A stretch of 13,843 nucleotides of DNA. It comes from Candidatus Muproteobacteria bacterium RIFCSPHIGHO2_01_FULL_65_16 (lineage in GTDB: Bacteria > Pseudomonadota > Gammaproteobacteria > Acidiferrobacterales > Sulfurifustaceae). The notes below the pieces were generated by a model. It saw only the letters and a program-made list of their open reading frames with translations, was not told the DNA's origin and made no database searches. The position numbers and the translations under genes were made by a program. The stretch covers positions 1-13,843 of the forward strand of contig MFSY01000004.1 of the NCBI GenBank assembly GCA_001785175.1, given 5' to 3'. This document shows, in pieces, positions 1 through 8,476 of this stretch; the first letter of the stretch is position 1, and each line of letters begins with the position of its first letter.

Positions 1-1088
1 TCGGCGCGCTGTTCCGGTGTCAGCCGCCCGTGCGTGGTCGTGGCCGGATGCGTGATCGTGGTCCTGGTGTCGCCGAGGTTGGCGGTGATGGATATGAGCC
101 GGACCGAATCAATCAGCCGCCAGGCCGCGTCTCTGCCGTCCACCTCGAAGGAGACAATGCCGCCGAAGCCGGACTGCTGTTTTTTCGCCAGCTCGTGCTG
201 CGGGTGCGACGGCAGCCCCGGGTAAAACACGCGCTGCACGCGCGGCTGTTTTTCCAGCCACTGCGCGAGGGTGAGCGCATTTTCGCTGTGCGCCCGCATG
301 CGCACGGGCAGCGTCTCCAGTCCTTTCAGGAATACCCAGGCATTGAACGGGCTCAGGGACGGACCGCAGGTGCGCAGGAAGCTGAAGATCTCTTTCCCCA
401 CCAGCTCGGCGTCGCCGATGACGGCGCCGCCGACGCAGCGGCCCTGGCCGTCGAGGTACTTGGTGGCGGAGTGGATGACGAGATCGGCGCCGAGCTTCAG
501 GGGCAACTGCTGCACCGGGGTACAGAAGACGTTGTCCACCGCCAGCAGGCACTTGCGGGCGCGCGCGAGCTTGCTCAAGCGCGCGATGTCGGCGATCTCG
601 GTCAGCGGGTTCGAGGGCGTCTCCAGGAACAACAGCTTCGTGTTCGGCCTGATCGCCCGCTCCCACGCGGCGTAATCGGTCAGCGAGACGTAGGTCGTCT
701 CGACGCCGAACTTGGCCAGGTAGTTGTTGAACAGCATCACCGTGCTGCCGAAGATGTTGCGCGACGCGACCAGGTGATCGCCGCTCTTCAGCAGCGTGAG
801 GCAGGTCGTGAGGATCGCGGCCATGCCGGAGGCGGTGGCGATGCAGCGCGCGCCGCCCTCGAGCGCCGCCAGGCGCTCCTCGAAGGCGCGCACCGTGGGA
901 TTGGTGAAGCGCGAATAGATGTTGCCCGGCTGCGCGCCCGAGAACCGCGCCGCCGCCTCGGCGGCATTTTTAAAAATGTAGCTGGAGGTGGCGAAGATCG
1001 GCTCGGAGTTCTCGCCCTCGTTCGTGCGATGCTGCCCCGCGCGCACCGCGCGCGTATCGAAGGCCCAGTCGTTATTGTCGTCGGTCAT
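1..1088 (-). CDS. metZ: O-succinylhomoserine sulfhydrylase MetZ (3' end cut by window edge)
   Basis: PLP enzyme that converts O-succinylhomoserine (or the acetyl form) and sulfide to homocysteine in methionine synthesis; cytoplasmic. Translating the minus strand from the ATG at 1088 gives an uninterrupted 362 residues that run off the left edge; the family is about 390-400, so about 30 C-terminal residues are missing. It reads as a Cys/Met-metabolism PLP enzyme: N-terminal TRAVRAG, NPTVRAFEERLAALEGG, ATASGMA (the loop binding the cofactor phosphate), and SATKY with the PLP lysine at about residue 210, followed by a near C-terminal ITANLGDTRT segment. The start is supported by AAGGAG at 1099-1094, five bases before the ATG. 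MetZ usually follows purF in this neighbourhood, as here. Expression appears to be controlled by its own promoter and a SAM-II riboswitch upstream. Substrate choice (succinyl versus acetyl) is inferred from neighbourhood only. Confidence 0.95.
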   Translation of the reverse strand, partial: MTDDNNDWAFDTRAVRAGQHRTNEGENSEPIFATSSYIFKNAAEAAARFSGAQPGNIYSRFTNPTVRAFEERLAALEGGARCIATASGMAAILTTCLTLLKSGDHLVASRNIFGSTVMLFNNYLAKFGVETTYVSLTDYAAWERAIRPNTKLLFLETPSNPLTEIADIARLSKLARARKCLLAVDNVFCTPVQQLPLKLGADLVIHSATKYLDGQGRCVGGAVIGDAELVGKEIFSFLRTCGPSLSPFNAWVFLKGLETLPVRMRAHSENALTLAQWLEKQPRVQRVFYPGLPSHPQHELAKKQQSGFGGIVSFEVDGRDAAWRLIDSVRLISITANLGDTRTTITHPATTTHGRLTPEQRA

Positions 1089-1093
1089 ACCCG

Positions 1094-1099
1094 CTCCTT
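1094..1099 (-). promoter_or_regulatory. metZ ribosome-binding site
   Basis: AAGGAG on the minus strand, five bases upstream of the metZ ATG at 1088. It fixes the start and lies directly after the palindromic repeat of the leader. Confidence 0.8.
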
Positions 1100-1115: not shown

Positions 1116-1208
1116 ACTCAACGCGAAGACGCAAAGGCGCAAAGGGCCGCAGAGTCTGTAGAAAAAATTCCAAACCCCTCTTTGCGCCCCGGCGCCTTTG
1201 CGTTGAGT
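1116..1208. repeat. Palindromic dispersed repeat (CGCAAAG type) in the metZ leader
   Basis: Two arms of iterated CGCAAAG-like units face each other. ACTCAACG at 1116-1123 pairs exactly with CGTTGAGT at 1201-1208, and the inner parts (GACGCAAAGGCGCAAAG on the left, CTTTGCGCC and GCGCCTTTGCG on the right) are imperfectly complementary. The same unit type recurs at 8399-8476 in this window. It sits in the metZ 5' untranslated region between the terminator and the ribosome-binding site, so it would be transcribed as a long hairpin. It has no coding content. Confidence 0.8.
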
Positions 1209-1238: not shown

Positions 1239-1259
1239 AAAAAAGCCGCAAATGCGGCC
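1239..1259 (-). terminator. Intrinsic terminator of the metZ leader (riboswitch expression platform)
   Basis: On the minus strand GCCGC (1258-1254), loop ATTT, GCGGC (1249-1245), then six T (1244-1239): a canonical intrinsic terminator upstream of metZ and downstream of the SAM-II aptamer. Its 5' half, GCATTTG at 1255-1249, can instead pair with CAAATGC at 1292-1286, part of the aptamer core. Forming one structure excludes the other. Confidence 0.85.
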
Positions 1260-1274
1260 GGAAGCGAAGTTATC

Positions 1275-1327
1275 TCGCTTTAGCGGCATTTGTACCGCGC
1301 CCGCAAGCTGAAGCTCAAATCGGCGCC
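1275..1327 (-). ncRNA. SAM-II riboswitch aptamer upstream of metZ
   Basis: Read on the minus strand, this segment carries the conserved blocks of the SAM-II class in order. These are a P1 strand GCGCC (1326-1322), the GATTTGA block (1321-1315), GCTTGC (1308-1303), the P1 partner GGCGC (1301-1297), then GGTACAAATG and GCTAAAG (1284-1278). A pseudoknot helix can form between loop GCTT (1314-1311) and AAGC (1280-1277). Spacing and order follow the SAM-II structure as I know it. SAM-II senses S-adenosylmethionine and sits mainly before methionine genes of Alphaproteobacteria, which fits metZ. The transcription start predicted from the promoter is only a few bases before P1. The platform downstream is a terminator with a competing antiterminator: CAAATGC (1292-1286) with GCATTTG (1255-1249), enclosing AAGCGA (1280-1275) paired with TCGCTT (1267-1262). 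Bound SAM should lock the core, free the terminator and shut metZ off. The motif is recognised by eye, not by covariance search. Confidence 0.87.
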
Positions 1328-1336
1328 AAGTGCTAA

Positions 1337-1365
1337 AATCTATCCGTCCCTCGACACGGTGTCAA
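1337..1365 (-). promoter_or_regulatory. Sigma-70 promoter of metZ
   Basis: Minus strand: TTGACA at 1365-1360, spacer of exactly 17 nt, TAGATT at 1342-1337. The -35 is perfect and the -10 differs little from TATAAT. The expected start near 1330 falls at the first bases of the SAM-II aptamer, which independently supports both calls. metZ is thus expressed apart from purF. Confidence 0.85.
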
Positions 1366-1485: not shown

Positions 1486-1809
1486 ATGCTGAAACGAGCC
1501 TGTCTCACGGCGCTGCTGCTTGCGCTTGCCGCCACCCCCGCTGTCTTCGCCAGAGGCGGCGGAGGACCCGGCGGCGGGCACGGGGGCGGCAAGGGCGGCG
1601 CCCACATGAGCGCCCCGGGCGCGGCCAACACCAACGCCCAGTCCCTGCCCGGCTCCACCCGGGGCCAGGACCGGGCGCAGGAGCGCATGAGCGACCAGGG
1701 CCTGGCGCATCAGAAATCCGGAAAGAAGAAGGATGGCGCCGCGGGCGCCGGATTGCCGCTCCCGCCGGTTCCCAAGAAGCTCGCGCCGCCGAAACCGCCG
1801 CTGCCGTAA
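1486..1809 (+). CDS. Small exported Gly/His-rich protein of unknown function
   Basis: 107 residues. Residues 1-22 form a signal peptide: MLKR, a Leu/Ala core, then VFA before the predicted cleavage. The mature part begins with a Gly-rich, His-containing run (residues about 23-42), then ANTNAQS, RGQDRAQERMSDQGLAHQK, and a Lys/Pro/Ala-rich tail. The segment with RA, ERMS and GL.H resembles a motif I associate with short exported proteobacterial proteins of no known role. The start is supported by AAGGAG at 1472-1477, eight bases before the ATG. It is transcribed away from metZ and is antisense to any purF/hicAB read-through. No cysteines and no enzyme motif. I do not assign a function; metal or surface binding by the Gly/His stretch is speculation. 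Confidence 0.72.
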   Translation: MLKRACLTALLLALAATPAVFARGGGGPGGGHGGGKGGAHMSAPGAANTNAQSLPGSTRGQDRAQERMSDQGLAHQKSGKKKDGAAGAGLPLPPVPKKLAPPKPPLP

Positions 1810-5171: not shown

Positions 5172-6444
5172 GGGCCGTGCCTCGACCAAGGCGGGATAGT
5201 ATATCACCGACGGTATGGAAGGAGCCAAACACCACCACCCGGTCGCGCGCGTCGGCGTCGCGGCAGGCGGCGTCATAGGCGCCGATGACGTCGGCGTGCG
5301 CCAGCACCGGCGCGGTGACGCCGGCCCGGGCGAGGGCCGCGGCGATTTCGTCGGCCGTGGCGCCGCGCGGCGTGTGCAGCGTGGCGACATACCAGCGGTC
5401 AACGACGCCCTCCATGGCGCGCGCGCTGGCGGCGATGTCCTTGTCCTTGAGCATCCCGAACACCGCCAGGGTCTTTCCGCCCGCCGGTTGTTGCCGCAGC
5501 GTGGCGGCGAGCGCCCGCACCGCGTCGGGATTGTGCGCGACATCGAGCACGCGCACGGGCGCCCCCGGCAACACCTGAAACCGCCCCGCGATCGCGGCGT
5601 TGAGCAGGCCGGCGCGGATGTGCGCCTGGCTGAGCGGAAATCGCCCGGACAGCAGCTCCAGCGCCGTCACGGCGCAGGCGGCGTTGCGCAGCTGATAGTC
5701 CCCGCGCAGGGCCGGATACGGAAGCCCGGCGCGCACGCGGCTCCCGTGGCGCCAGGTCCAGCCGTCCGCGCCGCGCTCGATGAAGAAATCGCGGTCGAGC
5801 AGCAGCAGGTCCGCGCCCACGGCGGCGGCCGTTGCGGCGATGCTCGCCGGCGGCGCGGGATCGCCGCAGATCGCCGGCCGCCCGGCGCGGAAGACGCCGG
5901 CCTTCTCGCGTCCGATGGACTCGCGATCGGGCCCGAGCCAGCTGGTGTGGTCTATGCCGATGGAGGTCACGATGGCGGCGTCGGCGTCAATGCCGTTGAC
6001 CGCGTCCAGCCGCCCGCCCAGGCCGACCTCGAGCGCGGCGACCTCGGTCCCGACCGCGCGGAAAAGATCGAACGCGGCCAGCGTGCCGAATTCGAAATAG
6101 GTCAGCGGCGTCGCCCCGCGCGCGGCCTCGACGCGCGCGAACGCGTCGCACAGCTCCGCGTCCGTGGCCGCGCGGCCGTCGAGGCGCACGCGCTCGTTGT
6201 AGCGGACGAGGTGCGGCGAGGTGTAGGCGCCGACCTTGTAGCCGGCGGCGCGCAGGCAGGCCTCGAGCATGGCCACGGTCGAGCCCTTGCCGTTGGTGCC
6301 GGCGACGGTGACGGCGCAAAAACCGGGGCGCCGCAGGTCCATCTGCTCCAGCACTGCGTGCACCCGCTCCAGGCCGAGCTCCATCGTGCGCGGATAGACG
6401 CCCTCGATCCACGCGAGCCACTCAGAAAGCGTTCGCGTATTCAG
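5161..6444 (-). CDS. folC: Bifunctional folylpolyglutamate/dihydrofolate synthase FolC
   Basis: About 427 residues. It adds glutamate to folates and joins dihydropteroate with glutamate, using ATP. From the chosen start, the ATP loop GTNGKGST is at 49-56, then YTSPHLVRYNERV, the EVGLGGRLDAVN segment, and IDHTSWLG, with LDVAHNP in the C-terminal Mur-ligase-like domain. There is no in-frame ATG at the expected place. The protein aligns from CTG at 6444 (NTRTLSEWLAWIE matches the normal family N terminus); ATT at 6456 with GAGG nine bases before it is the alternative. A TTG at 6588 would add 48 residues translated from a dispersed repeat, which I reject. The start is uncertain by about 12 bases; the rest is firm. 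A palindromic repeat separates it from accD, which normally lies very close. Confidence 0.93.
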   Translation of the reverse strand: MNTRTLSEWLAWIEGVYPRTMELGLERVHAVLEQMDLRRPGFCAVTVAGTNGKGSTVAMLEACLRAAGYKVGAYTSPHLVRYNERVRLDGRAATDAELCDAFARVEAARGATPLTYFEFGTLAAFDLFRAVGTEVAALEVGLGGRLDAVNGIDADAAIVTSIGIDHTSWLGPDRESIGREKAGVFRAGRPAICGDPAPPASIAATAAAVGADLLLLDRDFFIERGADGWTWRHGSRVRAGLPYPALRGDYQLRNAACAVTALELLSGRFPLSQAHIRAGLLNAAIAGRFQVLPGAPVRVLDVAHNPDAVRALAATLRQQPAGGKTLAVFGMLKDKDIAASARAMEGVVDRWYVATLHTPRGATADEIAAALARAGVTAPVLAHADVIGAYDAACRDADARDRVVVFGSFHTVGDILSRLGRGTAHGG

Positions 6445-8398: not shown

Positions 8399-8476
8399 TC
8401 AACGCAGAGACGCAAAGATATTTTGCATTTTTTACACTCGATTCTTTTCTCTGCGCCTTTGCGCCTTTGCGTCGAA
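8399..8476. repeat. Palindromic dispersed repeat (CGCAAAG type) between trpB and trpA
   Basis: Left arm TCAACGCAGAGACGCAAAGA (8399-8418) faces CTCTGCGCCTTTGCG, CCTTTGCGTCGAA (right arm about 8449-8476). Arms are complementary over most of their length. Units match those of the metZ-leader repeat at 1116-1208. The repeat occupies the trpB-trpA gap and would be transcribed within the operon. Confidence 0.82.

Follow-up and report, generated by a model that had tools for sequence, protein, structure and literature searches.

A probable SAM-II riboswitch with a predicted transcription attenuator upstream of metZ, and its relatives in the Gammaproteobacteria

In all probability the metZ leader in the stretch of DNA analysed here (13,843 nucleotides, hereafter the window) is a true SAM-II riboswitch equipped with an attenuator, and on the folds modelled for it we consider it highly likely that metZ is repressed through transcription attenuation by this element. 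As a representative of a known kind of switch, the leader is clean and open to testing. We also think it likely that SAM-II is a major methionine control element of the Gammaproteobacteria, taken broadly to comprise the betaproteobacteria as well, and that much of it goes unrecognised among sub-threshold matches to SAM_alpha, under the name of the 'metXZ' element and in the wrong-strand family Bp2_287; that the window leader is a member whose terminator arm captures the ligand-pocket strand; and that a GAGUUA sister form, mainly found before metK, is missed by Rfam. The features of the leader are as follows.

1337..1365, minus strand: sigma-70-type promoter, TTGACA 1365-1360, 17 nt, TAGATT 1342-1337
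1297..1326, minus strand: SAM-II helix P1, GCGCC 1326-1322 with GGCGC 1301-1297 (models and covariation)
1315..1321, minus strand: conserved GAUUUGA, ligand-binding loop, invariant in the 57 aptamers of alignment A1
1303..1308, minus strand: 5' strand of the P2 pseudoknot, GCUUGC, pairing with GCUAAAGC 1284-1277
1277..1293, minus strand: L3/ligand-pocket strand ACAAAUGCC and P2 3' strand GCUAAAGC (core conservation in A1)
1249..1292, minus strand: predicted composite antiterminator (minimum free energy, MFE), CAAAUGC 1292-1286 with GCAUUUG 1255-1249, GCU 1284-1282 with GGC 1259-1257, and AAGCGAG 1280-1274 with UUCGCUU 1268-1262
1239..1259, minus strand: intrinsic terminator GGCCGC-AUUU-GCGGCU followed by a U tract (terminator scan)
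1117..1207, minus strand: long inverted repeat, a dispersed element between the terminator and the ribosome-binding site, outside the switch
1094..1099, minus strand: Shine-Dalgarno sequence AAGGAG (read from the sequence)
3..1088, minus strand: metZ, O-succinylhomoserine sulfhydrylase, running off the window (NF006003 and TIGR01325)

The blocks listed in a first-pass annotation of this DNA, P1 GCGCC/GGCGC, GATTTGA, GCTTGC, GGTACAAATG and GCTAAAG, are all present and in SAM-II order, and the core GAUUUGA, CUUGC, AAAU and GCUAAAG runs in order through the leader, which stands, as is expected of SAM-II, before a gene for methionine or SAM synthesis. The covariance search that the annotation had proposed returned a match of limited score: the Rfam model SAM_alpha (RF00521) gives the leader 26.2 bits (E 0.018 across the window, 5.2e-4 across 401 bases), short of a gathering cut-off of 36, which is an annotation threshold and no structural feature. 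By the Rfam score alone the identity would be doubtful, and it is the relatives that decide. Model R1, built from 57 aptamers, scored 75.5 bits on the window, a circular figure because the window was among its training set; R3 was therefore built from other loci, its 42 aptamers comprising 34 leaders of named metZ loci and 8 more distant metX/metZ/metK leaders, with the window and all loci fetched as same-family or same-order relatives left out. R3 gives the window leader 69.5 bits (E 3.9e-21, the E-values of R1-R3 being rough) and the next-best place in the window 8.4 bits. SAM-V, which has a related SAM pocket and pseudoknot (PMC2704228, in the text available to us), differs in that the Rfam search did not detect it anywhere in the window at E<=1.

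Related leaders were drawn from several samples. Of 60 related genomes that were swept, 42 gave a match at E<=1 and 2 exceeded the cut-off, the former threshold being loose since 8 of 14 control genomes also matched; metZ lay within the locus in 24 of the 35 loci from the first sweeps (tblastn). The core pattern was present in 64 leaders among loci L001-L114, with duplicates of six loci set aside, and a strict core pattern in 43 of 80 named metZ loci. Conservation of the core in the 64 leaders is partly by construction, because they were picked by a core-motif pattern that required GATTT[GA]A and GCTAAAG. Five of the 64 carry an aptamer that repeats another's, and A1 comprises 57 of the 59 distinct aptamers, L058 and L092 being omitted for their long L3 inserts; AAAU is nearly invariant in this alignment and GCUAAAG invariant.

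Covariation among relatives, a check suggested by the annotation, favours P1 and gives nothing for P2. P1 has 3 of its 6 pairs changed on both sides in A5, and its covariation score there is reached by none of 500 shuffles; A5, the alignment behind R3, omits L046, L058, L092, the window and L007-L031, and its 34 leaders from named MAGs may include members of the window's own family. Five of the 6 pairs are changed on both sides in A2, a broader alignment fitted to the structure on which its pairs are counted, and 2 of 6 in A1, whose covariation score is matched by 35 of 500 shuffles and is thus a weak signal. Further pair types in A5, A2 and A4 were no more numerous than in shuffles. The P2 strands are complementary in the window and in 95.6% of A1 cells and show no covariation in A1, which is uninformative because the strands are nearly invariant.

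The frame that begins at 1088 was annotated as metZ, and it matches the NCBIfam O-succinylhomoserine sulfhydrylase models well above their cut-offs (NF006003, 644.5 bits, cut-off 522; TIGR01325, 548.7 bits, cut-off 510). Its nearest named MetZ relatives come from gammaproteobacterial MAGs, a 'Candidatus Muproteobacteria' MAG at 82% identity and an Acidiferrobacterales MAG at 80%, and the titles of the 80 kept metZ loci are gammaproteobacterial or simply proteobacterial, with genus names placed where we take them to belong. Given these relatives and titles, the host is probably a gammaproteobacterium, and the earlier guess of a beta- or gammaproteobacterial host was a fair one. The host's incomplete assembly holds one significant SAM-II match. 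HicA-like and HicB-like toxin-antitoxin genes lie between purF and metZ at 1936-2408 of the window (minus strand; Pfam), the HicB match being just above its Pfam cut-off.

The promoter TTGACA-17-TAGATT and the GC hairpin with its T run had both been described at first pass, and are found on the minus strand at 1365-1337 and 1259-1239, respectively. The promoter agrees with 10 of 12 consensus bases and ranks first among 3 promoter-like sites in the window, where shuffles lead one to expect 1.9; scored as at least 8 matches out of 12, a promoter is kept in 57 of the 64 leaders, 35-52 nt 5' of P1, against a shuffle expectation of 0.8. Transcription would start near 1330. The terminator hairpin is by itself unremarkable because the window has 17 such sites versus 10.3 expected; a script finds terminators in 62 of the 64 related leaders and recognised none in L012 and L015.

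The aptamer and the terminator are linked by the predicted three-part antiterminator. In Vienna folding, which ignores the pseudoknot and kinetics, this structure is the MFE fold of nascent RNA, growing in transcripts that end at 1252 and 1250 and complete in those that end at 1248 and 1246, when the 5' arm and loop of the terminator have been made and its 3' arm is incomplete. The antiterminator is predicted to be incompatible with the SAM-bound pseudoknot because it uses up the pocket strand and the P2 3' strand, and in the same folds it also holds the terminator 5' arm. Thus terminator and antiterminator exclude each other in the model, and a bound aptamer would exclude the antiterminator, as in a transcription attenuator. 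Enforced at full length, the antiterminator and the terminator have the same energy, -34.3 kcal/mol, which fits a switch that can be tipped by its ligand. The free full-length fold of the window leader is the terminator one with an additional L3 hairpin, GCGGUA/UGCCGC, that the annotation lacked; because the folds are tied and the terminator fold is the one returned with this hairpin, some termination is likely in the absence of SAM and may be considerable.

Both complements pointed out earlier, CAAATGC with GCATTTG and AAGCGA with TCGCTT, are real, and the second extends to AAGCGAG with TTCGCTT through a terminal G-U. The mutual exclusion of ligand-bound fold and antiterminator that was derived from them holds as a prediction, with a different division of labour: AAGCGA:UCGCUU does not overlap the terminator stem and excludes the P2 pseudoknot, and the terminator is excluded by CAAAUGC:GCAUUUG together with GCU:GGC. 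When the window leader is shuffled by mononucleotides 5000 times, 88 of the shuffles contain a 7-bp Watson-Crick helix joining core and platform; in a single case such a helix is thus only moderately unlikely, and its recurrence in relatives carries the weight. Among the 11 leaders of the window's platform type (alignment A3, picked by eye, two of them from one genome), AAAUGC pairs with the GCAUU arm in the nascent fold of all 11, and the free full-length fold is without the terminator in 8. In many other leaders the platform is simpler: the pairing partner of GCUAAAG(CG) is a (CG)CUUUAGC-like stretch, which overlaps the 5' arm of the terminator. In nascent RNA, at least 4 bases of GCUAAAG are paired downstream in 55 of the 62 terminator-bearing leaders (mean with shuffled platforms, 10.3), the seven that lack this pairing being L017, L021, L048, L056, L082, L098 and L108, and at least 2 bases of the terminator 5' arm are held in 47 of the 62. 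An earlier single-helix test had given p<=0.05 in 39 of 64 leaders; it missed the composite platform because it was restricted to GCUAAAG and three bases, and the nascent-fold test replaced it. All shuffles in the antiterminator, platform and promoter tests were mononucleotide shuffles.

We propose that RNA polymerase starts near 1330 and would make the aptamer first. With little SAM, the platform segments GCAUUUG, GGC and UUCGCUU would capture CAAAUGC of the ligand pocket and GCUAAAG of P2, keeping the terminator 5' arm in the antiterminator, and metZ would be transcribed. With SAM, the P1/P2 pseudoknot would close on the ligand and make CAAAUGC and GCUAAAG unavailable, leaving GGCCGC free for GCGGCU, and transcription would stop at the U tract near 1239. 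We infer SAM as the ligand and repression as the direction of the response; the OFF switch for methionine synthesis that the annotation had put forward is retained in this inferred form.

SAM-II has also been proposed to act mainly on translation, in the compact Sargasso Sea aptamer, which would make the terminator incidental; translational SAM-II is discussed in the available portion of PMC9373788, and in our own samples metK-type leaders and second aptamers of tandem arrays are, by eye, mostly without an obvious terminator and near the start codon. We regard such action as improbable for the window leader, where the metZ start codon lies some 150 nt past the terminator with the hairpin repeat in between, so that the aptamer does not touch the ribosome-binding site, and where the terminator recurs in nearly all relatives, as given above. 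At E<=0.001 the intervening repeat matches the host genome 24 times, for the most part partially, a count that includes the window copy and some places on both strands, and its family also occurs at 8449-8473 of the window (plus strand). MicroRNA matches at 1117-1207 were rejected, as they fall on this dispersed host repeat.

Weak Rfam matches to isrK (20.9 bits of 50, minus strand 1298-1239) and Bp2_287 (19.2 bits of 70, plus strand 1242-1362) could be read as a constitutive leader sRNA or an antisense sRNA. We give this reading very little credence: the isrK match falls within the same RNA, where it takes in the terminator and the aptamer's 3' half; the aptamer core, part of which was fixed by the collecting pattern, shows far more conservation than a plain terminator would require; and the Bp2_287 match is an echo of the riboswitch, being its antisense, because the family is a SAM-II leader in reverse complement. 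Neither was kept as a separate sRNA, and a match to ASpks at 5446-5523 (24.4 bits of 52) was treated as chance. That the ligand is SAH, methionine or another SAM relative is equally hard to credit: sequence leaves specificity short of certain, but the window retains the core letters of SAM-II, the controlled gene makes homocysteine for methionine, and SAM-II discriminates SAM from SAH more than 1000-fold (PMC6914780, in the part accessible to us).

The SAM-II riboswitch thus preferred for the window shares with those of Alphaproteobacteria, such as that of Sinorhizobium meliloti metZ, the P1/P2 H-type layout, GAUUUGA, CUUGC and GCUAAAG, the position before metZ and predicted termination on SAM. 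It differs from them in its P1, GCGCC/GGCGC in place of the Rfam consensus P1, in its score below the Rfam cut-off, and in a platform type whose terminator arm region pairs with AAAUGC and GCUAAAG. SAM-II outside the Alphaproteobacteria is not new, since the available text of two papers reports it: with terminators in alpha- and betaproteobacteria and in isolated gammaproteobacterial cases (Barrick and Breaker 2007, PMC2258182), and as most common in Alpha-, Beta- and Gammaproteobacteria (2009, PMC2704228). As far as the accessible sections go, the 28 genomes for which Leyn et al. (2014, PMC4239095) list SAM_alpha are all alphaproteobacterial.

The description of the setting as uncommon does not survive a wider search, as many class genomes have the same element in front of metZ, metX or further methionine genes. 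R1 matches about 174 of 369 class genomes at E<=1e-6 (a hand count of rows) and 232 at E<=0.05, a threshold at which chance would give about 18, both counts covering class genomes only. RF00521 reaches E<=0.01 in 136 of the 369 and passes its gathering cut-off in 30, and matched none of the 14 control genomes. The difference between 30 and about 174 suggests that in a large bacterial class most SAM-II riboswitches go unseen at the standard cut-off, and the family search thereby bears on methionine-gene regulation in the Gammaproteobacteria in the wide sense. In a phylum sample, R1 matched 74 of 398 at E<=1e-4. A MetZ-like protein lies downstream in 25 of the 30 loci kept from the R1 class sweep, the window included; the other five precede a methionine-transporter ATPase, an AAA ATPase, MetF (twice) and MetK.

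The search also offers an identity for the orphan 'metXZ' element. In the portion of PMC4239095 available to us, this betaproteobacterial element was reported as novel and apart from SAM_alpha, with six conserved regions and a pseudoknot followed by a terminator, before metXW/metZ; it resembles the class of the window leader in its pseudoknot, its terminator and the methionine genes metXW/metZ that it precedes. The SAM-II core is present in 12 fetched metX leaders (L152, L155-L157, L173, L196 and L198-L203), 9 of which have, by eye, a terminator-like hairpin and some of which have long L3 inserts. Judging from its description rather than its alignment, the metXZ element is probably SAM-II.

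One Rfam sRNA family, RF02424 (Bp2_287, Bp2_Cand287_SIPHT, a Burkholderia sRNA), looks as though it was modelled on the strand opposite to the riboswitch. It matches locus L149 at 176-348 (minus strand) with 203.9 bits, opposite to the MetZ-like frame, and L148 at 1512-1688 (plus strand) with 157.2 bits; its consensus contains the reverse complement of GCGUCGAUUUGA...CAGCUUGCGGACGC...CAGCUAAAGCGAAG and, read backwards, corresponds to a SAM-II metZ leader with a terminator. It differs in being filed by Rfam as an sRNA, with the model on the strand opposite to metZ. The available part of PMC3521395 places Bp2_287 homologues upstream of methionine genes, metZ and metX among them, and suggests a cis-acting role, and does not there name them SAM riboswitches; the accessible text of open-licence papers naming Bp2_287 held no mention of SAM-II that we found.

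A variant occurs before metK, where 13 leaders (L151, L154, L172, L174, L188, L189, L191-L195, L204 and L206) carry a SAM-II-like aptamer with GAGUUA replacing GAUUUG and an invariant GCUAAAGCGU. Their P1 has 2 of 6 pairs changed on both sides, a number reached by 391 of 500 shuffles, and a covariation score reached by none of 500. L151, L154, L172 and L174 had no Rfam match over the aptamer at E<=0.01, and L154 alone scored 13.5 bits with SAM_alpha. Model R2, built on the metK leaders, is unspecific: it matched 149 of 369 class genomes at E<=1e-4, ordinary SAM-II included, and scored 34.5 bits on the window. GAGUUA was also seen before an AAA-ATPase-like frame in L211.

Right behind the U tract of the terminator, many leaders (for example L010, L046, L057 and L104) have an GUGCCCGC-like motif that is complementary both to the 3' arm of the terminator and to the 3' strand of P1; it is not present in that form in the window (both by eye). 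Tandem SAM-II-like aptamers about 100 to 170 nt apart were observed in L161, L162, L181-L183, L166, L171, L177, L209, L210 and L216, the second aptamer of L177 being identified by eye; five of these pairs (L161, L162 and L181-L183) are in one genome, G301. Often the first aptamer of such arrays has a terminator and the second is of the GAUUUAA type. Tandem SAM-II has been reported before, with 44 cases given in the accessible part of PMC9481103. Locus L169 (genome G013) has two SAM-II aptamers before one metZ, at 396-454 and 1191-1249 and thus 795 bases apart, each with its own terminator and promoter-like site and with slightly different platform types.
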